64,000 bases of DNA, from positions 1 through 64,000 of the forward strand of contig NZ_JAFBIV010000004.1 in assembly GCF_021531915.1 (NCBI RefSeq), read 5' to 3'. The stretch comes from Oscillibacter valericigenes (GTDB lineage: Bacteria > Bacillota > Clostridia > Oscillospirales > Oscillospiraceae). The position numbers were made by a program, and so were the translations under genes. The notes under the pieces are model-generated. The model saw only the letters and a program-made list of their open reading frames with translations, did no database searches and was not told the origin of the DNA. Of the stretch, positions 22,304-61,170 are shown piece by piece (the first letter of the stretch is position 1; every line of letters begins with the position of its first letter).

Positions 22304-22612
22304 AAGTTCAAAAGAACAAACCAATGACGCAGACGAGTAAGCATTGCGGGTTTTTCTCAGAGAGCCGCCGATGGTGGGATGGCGGCAGAAACGCCTTTGC
22401 CGAATGGACTGCGGAGGGCGGGCTGAACGGAGCTTTTTTCTCAGTAAGTACCGACGGGCTTTTCCCCCGTTACCAAGGAAAGGCGTGTGATGGCACGTCG
22501 CCGAGCGGGCGCGCAAGCGTCAATTTGGGTGGCACCGCAGAAGTTTTCAGACTTTTGTCCCAAAGGAACCTATTGAAAATGGGTCCTTGTGGAACAAAGG
22601 TCTTTTTTGTTT
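22304..22612 (+). ncRNA. T-box riboswitch, probable tryptophan specifier
   Basis: The leader contains an AGTA loop motif in stem I (near 22335) and the T-box core TTGGGTGGCACCGC at 22525-22538. A terminator follows in which AGACTTTTGTCC and AAGGAACC pair with GGGTCCTTGTGGAACAAAGGTCT, then TTTTTT (22602-22608). Within the stem I arm, GAA-TGG-AC at 22402-22409 is placed like a specifier, giving UGG for tRNA-Trp. Uncharged tRNA-Trp would favour readthrough into trpB2. Confidence 0.9.
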
Positions 22613-36911: not shown

Positions 36912-38651
36912 TCAGGCCTTCTGTCCCTCGCGCTTCTTGATGACAAAGAGGGTTGCCAGCATCAGCACGATACCAACGGGCAGGCCCAGAATACCGGGCG
37001 CACCGGCAGACACCAGGATACCGGCAATCAGGTAGGTGACGCCGGACACGGCCGCGCAGGTGATGGCGTAGGGCAGCTGAGTGGACACATGGTTCACATG
37101 ATCGCACTGGGCGCCGGCGGAGGCCATGATGGTGGTATCGGAGATGGGAGAGCAGTGGTCGCCACAGACAGCGCCGGCCATGCAGGCGGAGATGCAGATG
37201 ATGGCCATGGGGTTGTCCATGGAGAACACATTCTGCACGATGGGGATCAGGATACCAAAGGTACCCCAGGAGGTACCGGTGGCAAAGGCCAGCAGGCAGC
37301 CGATGACAAACACGATCACAGGCAGCAGTAGCTGGATGCCGGTAGCGGAGGTACGGACAAAGTCACGGACGAAATACTTGGCGCCCAGAGAGTCGGTCAT
37401 CGCCTTCAGGCTCCAGGCAAAGGTCAGGATCATGATAGCAGGCACCATGGCCTTGAAGCCCTCGGGGATGCAGCCCATCATGTCCTTGAAGCTCATGGAG
37501 CGGCGGATCAGGAAATAGATGAAGCTGAACACCAGTGCAAAGGCAGAGCCCAGCATCAGGCCCACGGAGGCGTCGGAGTTGGAGAAGGCGGTGATGAAGC
37601 CCTCGCCCTCGAAGAAGCCGCCGGAGTAGATCATACCGATGACGCAGCAGATGATCAGCATCACCACAGGCAGCACCAGGTCCAGCACCCGGCCCTTGTC
37701 CTCAGGAACATCCTCCTCAGCGGAGGCATAAGGGTTCACACCGGAGAACAGGTCATTGTTCTCCACGGCGTTGCGCTCAAAGTTGCGCATCGTGCCGAAG
37801 TCCACCTTCATGACTACCAGACCCACCATCATCACGATGGTCAGCAGGGCGTAGTAATTATAGGGAATGGCACGCAGGAACAGGTTGAAGCCCTGGCCGT
37901 CCTCGGCGAAACCGGCAACGGCAGCCGCCCAGGAGCTGATGGGGGCGATGATGCAGATGGGGGCAGCAGTGGCATCAATGATGTAGGCCAGCTTGGCACG
38001 GGAGATGTTGTGCTTGTCAGTGATAGGACGCATGACGCTGCCCACGGTCAGGCAGTTGAAATAGTCATCGATAAAGATCAGGCAGCCCAGCAGAATAGAG
38101 GCCAGCTGCGCACCCACACGGCTCTTGATGTTCTTCTCCGCCCAGCGGCCGAAGGCAGCGGAACCGCCAGCCTTGTTCATCAGGCACACCATGGCGCCCA
38201 GGATCACCAGGAAGATCAAGATGCCCATGTTGTAGCTGTCGGTGACAGAGGCCACGATGCCGTCGTTGAACACATGGAGCACCGTCGTCTCAAAGGCGAA
38301 GTTGGAGTACAGCAGGCCGCCCACCAGAATACCGATGAACAGGGAGCTGTATACCTCCTTGGTGATCAGCGCCAGGGCAATGGCGATGATGGGAGGCAGC
38401 AAAGACCAGAAGGTGTTATAAAACTGGCTGGGGGATTCCACATAGCCGGTACCGCCACAGGTTTCGCACTCGGCAGCAGTTCCCTCGTCAGTGAGGACAA
38501 TGCCGACAGCTCCGCAGTCAGTGCACTCGATCATCTTGGTGCCGCTTTCCTCAGTGGGGTCATCCGCCGCAAAGGCAGTGACGGTCATGGCGCTGCACAG
38601 GAGCAGCAGCACTGCCAGAAGGGGCAGCAGCCGTCTTCTCAGGTTTCTCAT
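36912..38651 (-). CDS. NhaC-family antiporter with exported zinc-ribbon N-terminus
   Basis: 579 residues. A signal peptide (1-28, ending TVTAFAA) is followed by a ribbon with two CxxC pairs (CTDCGAVG and CETCGGTG, about 43-70), then an NhaC antiporter core with about eleven helices (FIDDYFNCLTVGSVMRP, IDATAAPICIIAPISSW, CGDHCSPISDTTIMASAGA). NhaC members exchange Na+ for H+. Members under a lysine riboswitch have been proposed to move lysine, and this gene has such a leader at 38670-38897. The exported ribbon is unusual for the family. Confidence 0.9.
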   Translation of the reverse strand: MRNLRRRLLPLLAVLLLLCSAMTVTAFAADDPTEESGTKMIECTDCGAVGIVLTDEGTAAECETCGGTGYVESPSQFYNTFWSLLPPIIAIALALITKEVYSSLFIGILVGGLLYSNFAFETTVLHVFNDGIVASVTDSYNMGILIFLVILGAMVCLMNKAGGSAAFGRWAEKNIKSRVGAQLASILLGCLIFIDDYFNCLTVGSVMRPITDKHNISRAKLAYIIDATAAPICIIAPISSWAAAVAGFAEDGQGFNLFLRAIPYNYYALLTIVMMVGLVVMKVDFGTMRNFERNAVENNDLFSGVNPYASAEEDVPEDKGRVLDLVLPVVMLIICCVIGMIYSGGFFEGEGFITAFSNSDASVGLMLGSAFALVFSFIYFLIRRSMSFKDMMGCIPEGFKAMVPAIMILTFAWSLKAMTDSLGAKYFVRDFVRTSATGIQLLLPVIVFVIGCLLAFATGTSWGTFGILIPIVQNVFSMDNPMAIICISACMAGAVCGDHCSPISDTTIMASAGAQCDHVNHVSTQLPYAITCAAVSGVTYLIAGILVSAGAPGILGLPVGIVLMLATLFVIKKREGQKA

Positions 38652-38669: not shown

Positions 38670-38897
38670 AAAAATGAAGTCATGACAGCGTCATGACTTC
38701 ATACAGCACATAAAAGCGTATGGAACCACGACAGCGCTCCGCCCCTTTCAGGGCGACAGTCCGGGGGATGTTCTCCCGCGGCCCGGCTCCGTGTTCCACA
38801 GGCTGATCCACGAAACCTCGGCAAATGTCCCTTTTACCCACCCCGGTGCCTGTCCGTAAAGGGTGGATGACTCATGACATTCGCGCCTCTATCATGC
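38670..38897 (-). ncRNA. Lysine riboswitch upstream of nhaC
   Basis: Minus strand: GATAGAGGCGCG at the 5' end (38885-38896), GCCGAGG, GAGCCGGG, GGACTGTCGCC and GGCGGAGCGCTGTC in the L-box order. A terminator TGAAGTCATGAC/GTCATGACTTCA with TTTTTT (38671-38702) ends it. Lysine should promote termination. Confidence 0.92.
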
Positions 38898-38908
38898 TTA
38901 GCGTCTCC

Positions 38909-39224: not shown

Positions 39225-40604
39225 TCAATACTGGCCCAGATTGCCGGAGGCCTTGGAGTTGGTGTTCTCGCCGAAGTTGAAGTCATTGCCGGGCAGGATG
39301 GCGTTGAGGATGATGCCCGCAATGGCGGCGATGGCCAGGGAGGTCAGGGTGATGGAGGCACTACCCACCTGGAAGGTCAGGCCGCCGGTGAAGCCCAGGC
39401 CGCAGACCATAATGACGGCCGCAATAATCAGGTTGCGGGAGTTGGTGAAGTCCACCTGATTCTCCACCACGTTGCGCACACCGATGGCAGAGATCATACC
39501 GTAGAGGATGAAGCTGACGCCGCCCACGATGGCTGCGGGAATGGTGTTGACAATGTAAGCAAAAGCGGGAGAGAAGGACAGCACGATGGCATACACGGCA
39601 GCCAGACGGATGACCCGGGGATCATAGACCTTGGACAGCACCAGAACGCCGGTGTTCTCGCCGTAGGTGGTGTTGGAGGGGCCGCCGAAGAAGCCCGCCA
39701 TGGCGGTGGCGATACCGTCGCCGATCAGGGTGCGGTGCAGACCGGGATCTTCAATGAAGTTCTCGCTCACCGTAGCGGAAATGGCGGACATATCGCCGAT
39801 GTGCTCCATCATGGAGGCAATGGCAATGGGAGCCATCACCAGAATGGCGGAAACATCAAACTTGGCAACGCTGCCGCCGAAGTTGGTAACAAAGGGCTGG
39901 AAGCCCAGCAGGGGGTTCGTGCCGGTGAACAGACCCATATTGGCCAGGCCGCTGAAGTCCACCTTGCCGGCCAGCAGCGCCACCACATAGGAGCCCACAA
40001 CACCCAGCAGGATGGGGATGATCTTAATCATGCCCTTGCCCCAGATGTTGGCCACGATGATAATGGCCATGGCCAGCAGTGCCAGCCACCAGCAGGTAGA
40101 AGCGTTGTTCACCGCAGAGGGCGCCAGATTCAAGCCGATCAGAATGACGATGGGGCCGGTGACCACCGGAGGCAGGAAGCGCATCACCTTGTGCACGCCC
40201 ACCGCCTTGATGATGGCAGCCAGCACCACATACAAAAGGCCTGCCACAACGATGCCGCCGCAGGCATACTGCAGCTTTTCGGAGGCCTCCATGGTGGCGT
40301 ACATGCCATCGCTCATGTTGGCCATGGCAGCAAAGCCGCCCAGATAAGCAAAGGAAGAGCCCAGGAATGCAGGCACCTTCATCTTGCTGCAGACATGGAA
40401 AAACAGCGTGCCGATACCGGCGAAGAACAGCGTGGTCTGGATGCTCAGGGGCAGGCCGTAGCTCTGGACCAGGATGGGCACCAGAACAGTGGCGCCGAAC
40501 ATAGCGAACATGTGCTGCAGGCCCAGGATCAGCATCTTGGGGATGCCCAGGGTCCGGGCGTCCCGGATAGGCTGCTGACCGATGTTGGATTTCTTCTCGT
40601 TCAT
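39225..40604 (-). CDS. uraA: Uracil/xanthine permease (NCS2 family)
   Basis: 459 residues with about fourteen helices. NCS2 signatures are QHMFAMFGATVLVPIL, the PAFLGSSFAYLGGF segment, MEHIGDMSAIS and FFGGPSNTTYGEN. UraA-type residues favour uracil over xanthine, but substrate is inferred. It imports nucleobase with protons. A long leader carries a promoter, a short pyrimidine-rich reading frame and a terminator (40643-40798), so expression is probably attenuated. GAGAGGAGAA lies before the ATG. Confidence 0.92.
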   Translation of the reverse strand: MNEKKSNIGQQPIRDARTLGIPKMLILGLQHMFAMFGATVLVPILVQSYGLPLSIQTTLFFAGIGTLFFHVCSKMKVPAFLGSSFAYLGGFAAMANMSDGMYATMEASEKLQYACGGIVVAGLLYVVLAAIIKAVGVHKVMRFLPPVVTGPIVILIGLNLAPSAVNNASTCWWLALLAMAIIIVANIWGKGMIKIIPILLGVVGSYVVALLAGKVDFSGLANMGLFTGTNPLLGFQPFVTNFGGSVAKFDVSAILVMAPIAIASMMEHIGDMSAISATVSENFIEDPGLHRTLIGDGIATAMAGFFGGPSNTTYGENTGVLVLSKVYDPRVIRLAAVYAIVLSFSPAFAYIVNTIPAAIVGGVSFILYGMISAIGVRNVVENQVDFTNSRNLIIAAVIMVCGLGFTGGLTFQVGSASITLTSLAIAAIAGIILNAILPGNDFNFGENTNSKASGNLGQY

Positions 40605-40642: not shown

Positions 40643-40670
40643 AAAAAAAATACCGGCACCAATAGCCGGT
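40643..40670 (-). terminator. Attenuator-type terminator ahead of uraA
   Basis: Minus strand ACCGGC-TATTGGT-GCCGGT followed by A and eight Ts. It lies between the promoter and the uraA start. The stop codon of the leader peptide touches its first base. Confidence 0.85.
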
Positions 40671-40735
40671 CAAACAAAAGGAACGGGAAAAAGAGAAGAA
40701 GCCGCCGCAGCTTTCAGACCCATCAAATACAGCAT
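40670..40735 (-). CDS. Putative leader peptide controlling uraA
   Basis: 21 codons: MLYLMGLKAAAASSLFPVPF plus Val. GAGAGGGAA stands at ribosome-site distance before the ATG. The last ten codons are almost all pyrimidine-rich (TCT, CTT, TTT, CCC, GTT, CCT), and the TGA (40670-40672) abuts the terminator stem. The arrangement resembles the E. coli pyrBI leader, where low UTP slows RNA polymerase in U-rich DNA so that the translating ribosome blocks the terminator. This is inference from layout only. Confidence 0.5.
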   Translation of the reverse strand: MLYLMGLKAAAASSLFPVPFV

Positions 40736-40768
40736 GCCGTTTCCCTCTCTTTCGTTCTTTTTCGCCTC

Positions 40769-40798
40769 ATTATACATGAAAGGTATGACGTATTGCAA
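40769..40798 (-). promoter_or_regulatory. Promoter of the uraA leader
   Basis: TTGCAA (40793-40798), 18 bp, TATAAT (40769-40774) on the minus strand. Confidence 0.65.
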
Positions 40799-45118: not shown

Positions 45119-45871
45119 TCAGGAGACGGCTTCCACCGTCTCCTGAATCGTTTCTGTATGTATGTTCATTGCCTCCGCCAGCCGCCGAATCACCACATAC
45201 TCCTCCAAACACAGGCCGCTGTCCCGCATGGCCAGGGCGGCTTCCCGCCCTACATAGCGGTAATGCCAGGGCTCATAGCCAACGCCGGTGATCTCGCTCT
45301 TGTCGGTGGGGTACCGCAGGATGAAGCCATATTCCCAGCAGTGCTCCATGAGCCACTTCTGCTCAGCGGTCTTTTCCTGCTGGTGGGTCAGCTTCTGATA
45401 GGAGGCCGACACGATATCCACCGCCATACCGGTGTGGTGCTCACTGGTACCCGGTGCCGCCACCCAGCGGATGGCTTCCTCCTCCGCTGCCGACTGTGAA
45501 TAGCCTGCCGCCCGCAGACGGGCGATCTTATTTTTGTGCAGCCGGGTCTGGGTCGCCACGTCCCGATAGGCCGAGCAGACGATGGGATGCAAGCCGGCCT
45601 TGCCGCAGTCCGTCAGCATGGCGGTCAGGTCCTCATAGGCCCGCTCATCCACCTGCAGCCCCCCCGGCAGCTTCTTCAGCGTCACCGCATATTCTTCGGG
45701 CATGGGATTCCAGCGGTTCACCAGCAGCAGGCGCCAATCCTCCGTCTGCTCCTGCACCTGTTGGCACTCCTGGACAGTCTCCCGGACCTGGTCTTCGGCA
45801 ACCTCCGCCACGGAAGTGACCGGCAGCAGAAACAAGGTCAGCAGCAGAGAGACCGATGAAAGCAGATTCAT
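45119..45871 (-). CDS. VanY-type D-alanyl-D-alanine carboxypeptidase
   Basis: 250 residues with an N-terminal hydrophobic signal (NLLSSVSLLLTLFLLPVTSV). M15B peptidase motifs: VCSAYRDVATQTRLH, SEHHTGMAVDI (zinc His/Asp) and EPWHYRYVG (catalytic Glu-x-x-His). It trims D-Ala from peptidoglycan stem peptides outside the membrane. GGAGGAGTTGAC sets the start at 45871. Convergent with the MGMT-like gene, with only 3 bp between stops and a shared GAGACGG hairpin. Confidence 0.92.
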   Translation of the reverse strand: MNLLSSVSLLLTLFLLPVTSVAEVAEDQVRETVQECQQVQEQTEDWRLLLVNRWNPMPEEYAVTLKKLPGGLQVDERAYEDLTAMLTDCGKAGLHPIVCSAYRDVATQTRLHKNKIARLRAAGYSQSAAEEEAIRWVAAPGTSEHHTGMAVDIVSASYQKLTHQQEKTAEQKWLMEHCWEYGFILRYPTDKSEITGVGYEPWHYRYVGREAALAMRDSGLCLEEYVVIRRLAEAMNIHTETIQETVEAVS

Positions 45872-60937: not shown

Positions 60938-61170
60938 AAGAAAAAGTCGGTAGAGACACGCTCCTACCGACAGTCCATTCACGCACAAAAGCGTGGAGTC
61001 TCTGTTAGCGGATAGCGCCCCCGCAGTCTCCCGCGGACAGTCCAACGGGTGTTCCCCGCAGGCCCACCTTCCTGCCACGCCTGACCGAAAAGTTCGGCGG
61101 ATTTGCCCTTCCCACCTTCCCAGCCTGCCGGCTCCCGTGGGTCCATCGCATCCGCGCCTCTATCTCATTT
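60938..61170 (-). ncRNA. Lysine riboswitch upstream of dapA
   Basis: Minus strand: GATAGAGGCGCG at the 5' end (61153-61164), GGAGCCGGC, GCCGAAC, GGACTGTCCGCGG and GGGGGCGCTATCC in L-box order. The terminator GTCGGTAG/CTACCGAC with TTTTTC lies at 60940-60971. It shares its 5' core with the leader of nhaC. Confidence 0.93.

Follow-up and report, generated by a model that had tools for sequence, protein, structure and literature searches.

The DNA preceding the uracil permease gene (uraA) of Oscillibacter valericigenes encodes what is probably (at roughly 60%, in our estimate) a transcription attenuator, coupled to translation, that controls uracil uptake through a race between ribosome and polymerase in which the speed of the polymerase would depend upon UTP. 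The leader is located on the minus strand of the window, by which we mean the whole stretch of 64,000 nucleotides analysed here. It comprises the following parts, each given with its coordinates, strand and supporting evidence.

40769..40798 (-): predicted sigma-70 type promoter of the uraA leader, TTGCAA-18-TATAAT (10/12 consensus matches)
40741..40762 (-): 5′ arm of helix P1, being the 5′ UTR including the leader Shine-Dalgarno (SD) sequence GAGAGGG at 40749-40743 (fold, and coevolution with the 3′ arm)
40670..40735 (-): leader frame of 21 codons plus TGA, MLYLMGLKAAAASSLFPVPFV (open reading frame, same layout in relatives, frame test 27/33)
40676..40697 (-): 3′ arm of helix P1, being the U-rich end of the frame; putative anti-Shine-Dalgarno and candidate pause tract (fold, comparison)
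40643..40670 (-): intrinsic terminator, a 6-bp stem at 40670-40652 followed by A and then T8 at 40650-40643 (sequence)
39225..40604 (-): putative regulated gene, an NCS2 uracil permease (uraA type) of 459 aa (profile and structure matches)

The leader sits between a gene of the 2-thiouracil-desulfurase family (PF04463) and the NCS2 permease. Its ATG is at 40735, preceded by the SD sequence, and its TGA occupies 40672-40670, the A doubling as the first base of the terminator stem. The stem reads ACCGGC-TATTGGT-GCCGGT (40670-40652) and is predicted to remain formed in the leader transcript (five outer pairs, mean probability 0.94); uraA starts at 40604, 47 nt past it. The promoter, ribosome site, 21-codon frame, TGA on the first stem base and run of eight T had all been picked out in an earlier note on this DNA, and each is present in the minus strand. 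Rfam finds no family at the leader site at gathering thresholds and chance matches only at relaxed thresholds, and an NCBIfam scan of the 21-aa leader peptide gives no match. The permease matches Pfam Xan_ur_permease with 288 bits, and its best solved structural relatives are uracil permeases. It falls below the NCBIfam uracil-permease equivalog cut-off (294 vs 477 bits), so that its uracil specificity rests on similarity and neighbourhood. The upstream gene (2-thiouracil desulfurase / DUF523 family, PF04463, 40874-41302 (-)) has a relative in the uraA flanks of loci L005, L007, L008, L016 and L104, which may point to a connection with pyrimidine salvage.

For comparison, uraA loci were collected from 80 named contigs among the matches listed, and also from genomes belonging to its family or order. 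A strict leader was defined as an ATG with at least five of six SD matches, a frame of 14-45 codons, a stop no earlier than -3 relative to the stem base and no later than the end of the stem, and a terminator of -7 kcal/mol or better at most 200 nt from uraA. The leader layout at uraA exceeds chance. It is present in 42 of 139 uraA locus rows (which include some duplicates) and is matched by 341 of 8400 dinucleotide shuffles. With ten near-identical rows removed for the distinct counts, it is found at 41 of 129 loci, 58 of which have any such terminator. One of the 41, L020, was removed by hand because what looks like its leader frame is the tail of the gene upstream. The order-level set contributes eight more strict leaders in 27 loci (L200-L226), and with other families added the total is 47 distinct leaders in 153 distinct uraA loci. 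Strict leaders also occur in six genomes from other families of the order, and in none of the 36 loci titled Lachnospiraceae or Butyrivibrio among the matches listed. Nine further loci appear leader-like by eye, fail the strict definition and are uncounted (L040, L080, L109, L110, L122, L140, L205, L211 and L221). A TATAAT with at most one mismatch precedes the ATG in 40 of the 50 rows with strict leaders, compared with 122 of 1000 random positions. At the Butyrivibrio locus L060 there is a strong hairpin with a T-rich tail just before uraA, without a strict leader frame; this is perhaps a different type of attenuator in Lachnospiraceae.

A looser definition of the leader was abandoned, since 13 of the 41 terminators of the window fitted it, including the leader. 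The 12 others, each a terminator with a short frame nearby, lend some credence to a constitutive partial terminator with an incidental frame and no regulation, as does the scarcity of stop codons in pyrimidine-rich sequence. This is nevertheless a very improbable reading, because the strict definition separates uraA leaders from control terminators of the same DNA and the window (42/139 vs 4/340), and both the phase of the frame and the pairing described below look selected. One of the four control sites is in the window, at the end of a gene at 45146 (-).

A partial scan of the O. valericigenes genome for frames ending T-TGA before seven Ts gave 27 places, among which the uraA leader alone qualifies, and there is no strict leader at its pyr operon or at upp. 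In leader-bearing genomes none of 19 pyrC loci and none of 16 carA loci has a strict leader, where some of the pyrC matches are distant (11 are only 39-43% identical to the query) and either gene may not head its operon. The organism's own pyrCKDFEBI operon (L102 4873-4950) has a promoter-like TTGACA..GATAAT near its start by eye, and no such leader.

The phase of the frame was assessed with a frame-blind test, which started from the distinct loci where a stop triplet falls at the stem base and picked an SD-ATG regardless of frame. There are 35 such loci, 33 of them with an upstream SD-ATG. This ATG is in frame with the stem-base stop in 27 of the 33, with 26 open throughout (p 1.4e-8, phylogeny ignored). 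In the strict set the stop lies at -3 to 0 in 28 of 47 leaders and inside the stem in 19, within the range required by the definition; among control terminators behind long frames the stop is at -3 or later in 5 of 46. The distance from ATG to stem is 45-106 nt, and in L008 and L016 the frame runs through the terminator to the uraA start. In alignments of near relatives the promoter, SD, ATG and frame end are kept, while the peptide drifts and its length varies. Thus a frame reaching the terminator appears to be conserved, and would presumably be translated. Judged by the position of the stop alone, a ribosome on the leader would overlap the terminator.

The end of the frame is rich in U. The earlier note had proposed comparing the leaders of relatives, and across them the U-rich end before the terminator persists, with the U fraction rising from ∼0.21-0.27 in the middle of the frame to 0.55-0.57 in its last 15 nt. 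Codons ending in T are in excess at 35 of 35 loci including L020 (220 of 322 NNY codons vs 66.6 expected). This was not used as proof of selection for U, because the early leader is also raised (92/181) and uraA is probably codon-optimised.

The composition of the late codons bears upon an amino-acid attenuator, in which the ribosome would stall at Ser, Val, Phe or other late codons when the amino acid is scarce. Like the trp/his-type attenuators, the uraA leader has a translated frame before a terminator. Ser, Phe and Val are frequent in the last 12 codons (in 45, 42 and 33 of 47 leaders respectively), and codons for Ser (UCN, 75 vs 43 and 58 in the other frames) and Val (GUN, 45 vs 21 and 20, in 40 leaders) are commoner in frame, so that the codon test by itself leaves other amino acids possible. 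Phe codons show no in-frame excess (92, 114 and 119 in frames 0, 1 and 2), making a Phe sensor unlikely. In addition, the terminator is predicted to fold with at least four of its five outer pairs intact in 39 of 40 leaders, and coevolution between the 5′ UTR and the terminator arm is absent (z -0.1), which argues against an antiterminator; no mutually exclusive one was seen in the folds of 40 leaders or in the coevolution over 47. The stop lies on the stem, whereas amino-acid attenuators keep more than 20 bp between stop and terminator (PMC4824070), and no biosynthetic gene follows. Control by an amino acid is therefore improbable.

The U-rich end of the frame has a second potential role, as a strand of helix P1. 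In the window 40762-40741 pairs with 40697-40676; folded as leader plus terminator this gives z -3.20, with 1 of 200 shuffles as stable, and a 204-nt fold that includes the uraA start gives z -0.14. Across the 47 leaders the pairing of each 5′ UTR with its own tract is stronger than cross-species pairs by 2.45 kcal/mol, an excess computed after subtracting row and column means with phylogeny ignored. The excess has z -5.7 and is matched by none of 10,000 cross-species permutations. It persists in a set thinned to leaders <60% alike (n = 41, z -5.6). Control pairings with the promoter side, the uraA SD, the frame start and the terminator arm, and of UTR with frame start, have no excess. The signal is strong for 5′ UTR positions -14 to -1 (z -5.1) and weak for -28 to -15 (z -1.7); the spacer from -8 to -1 alone gives a weaker excess (z -3.2, 9 of 10,000 permutations). 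Pairing of the uraA SD with the tract, as would be required for translational attenuation, was tested across the leaders and none was seen.

The SD core has a predicted pairing probability of 0.46 while the last 40 nt are still missing and of 0.90 once they have been made; pairing with the tract stands at 0.82, compared with 0.60 for shuffled tracts. In the best fold at least four of the six SD bases are paired with the tract in 41 of 47 leaders. The U-rich frame end thus appears to be the anti-Shine-Dalgarno arm of the leader's own ribosome site, a role missed in the earlier note. The pyrimidine-rich last third of the frame, noted there as a parallel with pyrBI, is present, but because it doubles as this arm its composition alone is no proof of UTP-sensitive pausing. 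The tract base opposite G in the helix is C in 263 pairs and U in 140, and the U-richness of the tract is in part accounted for by pairing. Unpaired tract bases remain U-rich (0.40 U, 0.18 C), which suggests weakly that U is somewhat favoured beyond the needs of pairing. Eight by-eye leaders outside the strict set include seven that could be scored. Both sides are favourable in L008 and, barely, in L016; the pairing is one-sided in L078 and L140, and worse than cross pairs in L040, L080 and L211.

A conserved P1 pairing might also be the target of a protein or ligand acting in trans, with the frame secondary, and relatives that carry the regulator PyrR do control uraA in another way. The sequence and loop of P1 vary among relatives while the pairing is conserved, however, and no Rfam family reaches threshold there. 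Together with the 27/33 result for the frame and the failure to find PyrR in the genome, this makes binding of a trans-acting factor improbable too.

Bacillota usually regulate pyrimidine genes through PyrR. PyrR-dependent attenuation of their pyr operons performs the same task as that proposed here and, in relatives, acts on the same gene. It requires both PyrR and its binding loop. A PyrR-binding loop had been suggested as an alternative to look for; none is present in the leader at either gathering or relaxed Rfam thresholds. Nor was PyrR found in the genome itself (97.7% complete), where the best score with the PyrR model is 31.6 bits vs 107-138 in carriers, and the phosphoribosyltransferases read as other enzymes. 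Two sets of uraA-bearing genomes were scored with the model; 8 of the 51 genomes in one and 4 of the 27 in the other are carriers, with 107-138 and 112-126 bits respectively. All of these carriers are below the curated 140 bits, and are separated by a gap to 45 bits and by gene position; the rest of the 51 score no higher than 45 bits, and in the 27 only matches with E of 1e-15 or better were considered. In 8 of the 12 PyrR-bearing relatives pyrR lies directly before uraA, as judged from a sequence motif. None of these 12 genomes has a strict leader, compared with 30 of 66 PyrR-less genomes (one-sided Fisher p 0.0016, phylogeny ignored), leaving 36 of the 66 without one. Relatives that have lost the frame and kept PyrR, which the earlier note would have taken to refute its proposal, are a minority, and they make an either/or pattern with the leader.

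Comparison between relatives establishes, at the level of sequence, the frame, the position of its stop, the pairing of SD with tract, the association with uraA and the mutual exclusion of leader and PyrR. A mechanism acting through the leader frame is strongly supported on this basis. In it the polymerase would first make the 5′ UTR with the leader SD, and then a frame ending in 30-40 nt that are U-rich and complementary to the UTR. With ample UTP a fast polymerase would allow the U-rich arm to close on the SD before a ribosome loads, the terminator would fold and uraA would be off. At low UTP the polymerase would be slowed in the U-rich tract, and a ribosome would load first and hold the helix open. 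The loaded ribosome would run to the stop on the first stem base and cover the 5′ arm of the terminator, giving read-through into uraA. Translation of the leader in the cell and the block of the terminator by the ribosome are what the layout would imply, and UTP-dependent polymerase speed is a plausible signal in view of the pyrBI precedent, the gene controlled and the exclusion with PyrR. The suggestion of control by a leader peptide thus holds as regards a conserved frame before a terminator at uraA and the failure to find PyrR; as regards UTP we infer it.

Several published results bear upon the race. In E. coli, termination fell from ∼90% to <10% when a stop codon was shifted to 5 bp ahead of a terminator (PMC4824070), and the uraA leader layout places its stop there. 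The polymerase of B. subtilis outruns its ribosomes (PMC9226507), and short distances from stop to terminator have been interpreted as a mark of such uncoupling (PMC7858274), so the terminator should win by default.

Coupled anti-termination with sequestration of the SD might also respond to a signal other than UTP, namely to ribosome supply or initiation rate, through NusG pausing at TTNTTT. The motif is matched by TTGTTT at 40677-40672, overlapping the end of the P1 3′ arm, and 26 of 47 leaders have it within a 45-nt stretch around the tract, compared with 17.4 ± 2.8 in block shuffles (reached by 2 of 1000). Moreover the B. subtilis leaders tlrB and vmlR combine leader frames with NusG pausing (PMC6851288, PMC9226507). 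Yet the reversed motif TTTNTT is equally common (25/47), so the excess may reflect runs of T only and was not used as evidence, while the association with uraA, and the absence of the leader where PyrR is present, point to pyrimidines. NusG-timed reading of ribosome supply is an unlikely alternative. The tlrB and vmlR leaders resemble the uraA leader in being Bacillota leader frames with an intrinsic terminator, and in having polymerase pauses that set the timing of the ribosome. Their signal is a ribosome stalled by an antibiotic, whereas the uraA leader precedes a permease gene, and tlrB needs a peptide stalling motif, whereas the uraA leader peptide drifts.

The closest known parallel to the UTP-dependent attenuator preferred here is E. 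coli pyrBI, where the polymerase pauses in a U-rich tract at low UTP and expression rises when UTP is low. Both have a short translated leader (presumably so for uraA), a U-rich tract, an intrinsic terminator and a pyrimidine gene behind. The distance from the pyrL ATG to the stem (88 nt) is within the range of the uraA leaders, and the T fraction in the 30 nt before the pyrL stem is 0.40. The description of the window leader as having the very layout of pyrBI is inexact. In pyrL the stop comes 44 nt beyond the first base of the stem, whereas the uraA leaders stop at or inside the stem; pyrL reads through to pyrB, and L008 and L016 do likewise to the uraA start. The uraA leader would moreover control uptake rather than biosynthesis, and its hosts are Bacillota. 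In the predicted fold of pyrL (L254 4400-4534, E. coli K-12) 8 bases of the SD region are paired with the U-rich tract, CGGGAGGA/UCUUCCCG; the energy of pairing between its 5′ UTR and tract is no better than shuffles (z +0.5), unlike the uraA leaders. Kinship with enteric pyrL was considered from a single E. coli leader, which differs in gene, phylum and position of the stop, and the peptides drift too fast for a test of homology. We regard the uraA leader as a variant of the pyrBI attenuator in which the arm from SD to tract is the new feature, and the comparison raises the question of whether the complement between SD and tract in pyrL is part of the classical pyrBI mechanism.

The U-rich stretch might then combine three roles, as a pause tract sensitive to UTP, as the final codons of the frame and as the strand that hides the SD. 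A pause would thereby become an all-or-none decision, with the leader either occupied by a ribosome or closed. Such an element would be a stand-in for PyrR in part of Oscillospirales and a case of coupling at specific leaders in Bacillota. We hold this fuller picture tentatively, at a little short of an even chance. No account of such a leader in Bacillota was found in one open-access library, searched without preprints. If real, the attenuator would allow a large group of gut Bacillota to control pyrimidines by a route free of PyrR. The leader would need the polymerase and ribosome to meet, in a phylum whose reference B. subtilis has a runaway polymerase, so that coupling is directly testable here; should the leader indeed lock itself in this way, transcription and translation would be coupled at specific leaders in Bacillota.

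Other leader elements are present in the window. There are two lysine riboswitches, at 38724-38899 (-) and 61005-61170 (-), the first of which precedes a gene of the Na+/H+ antiporter family (36912-38651) that is perhaps a lysine transporter. A T-box leader is located at 22315-22565 (+), with 94.2 bits against an Rfam gathering score of 93.
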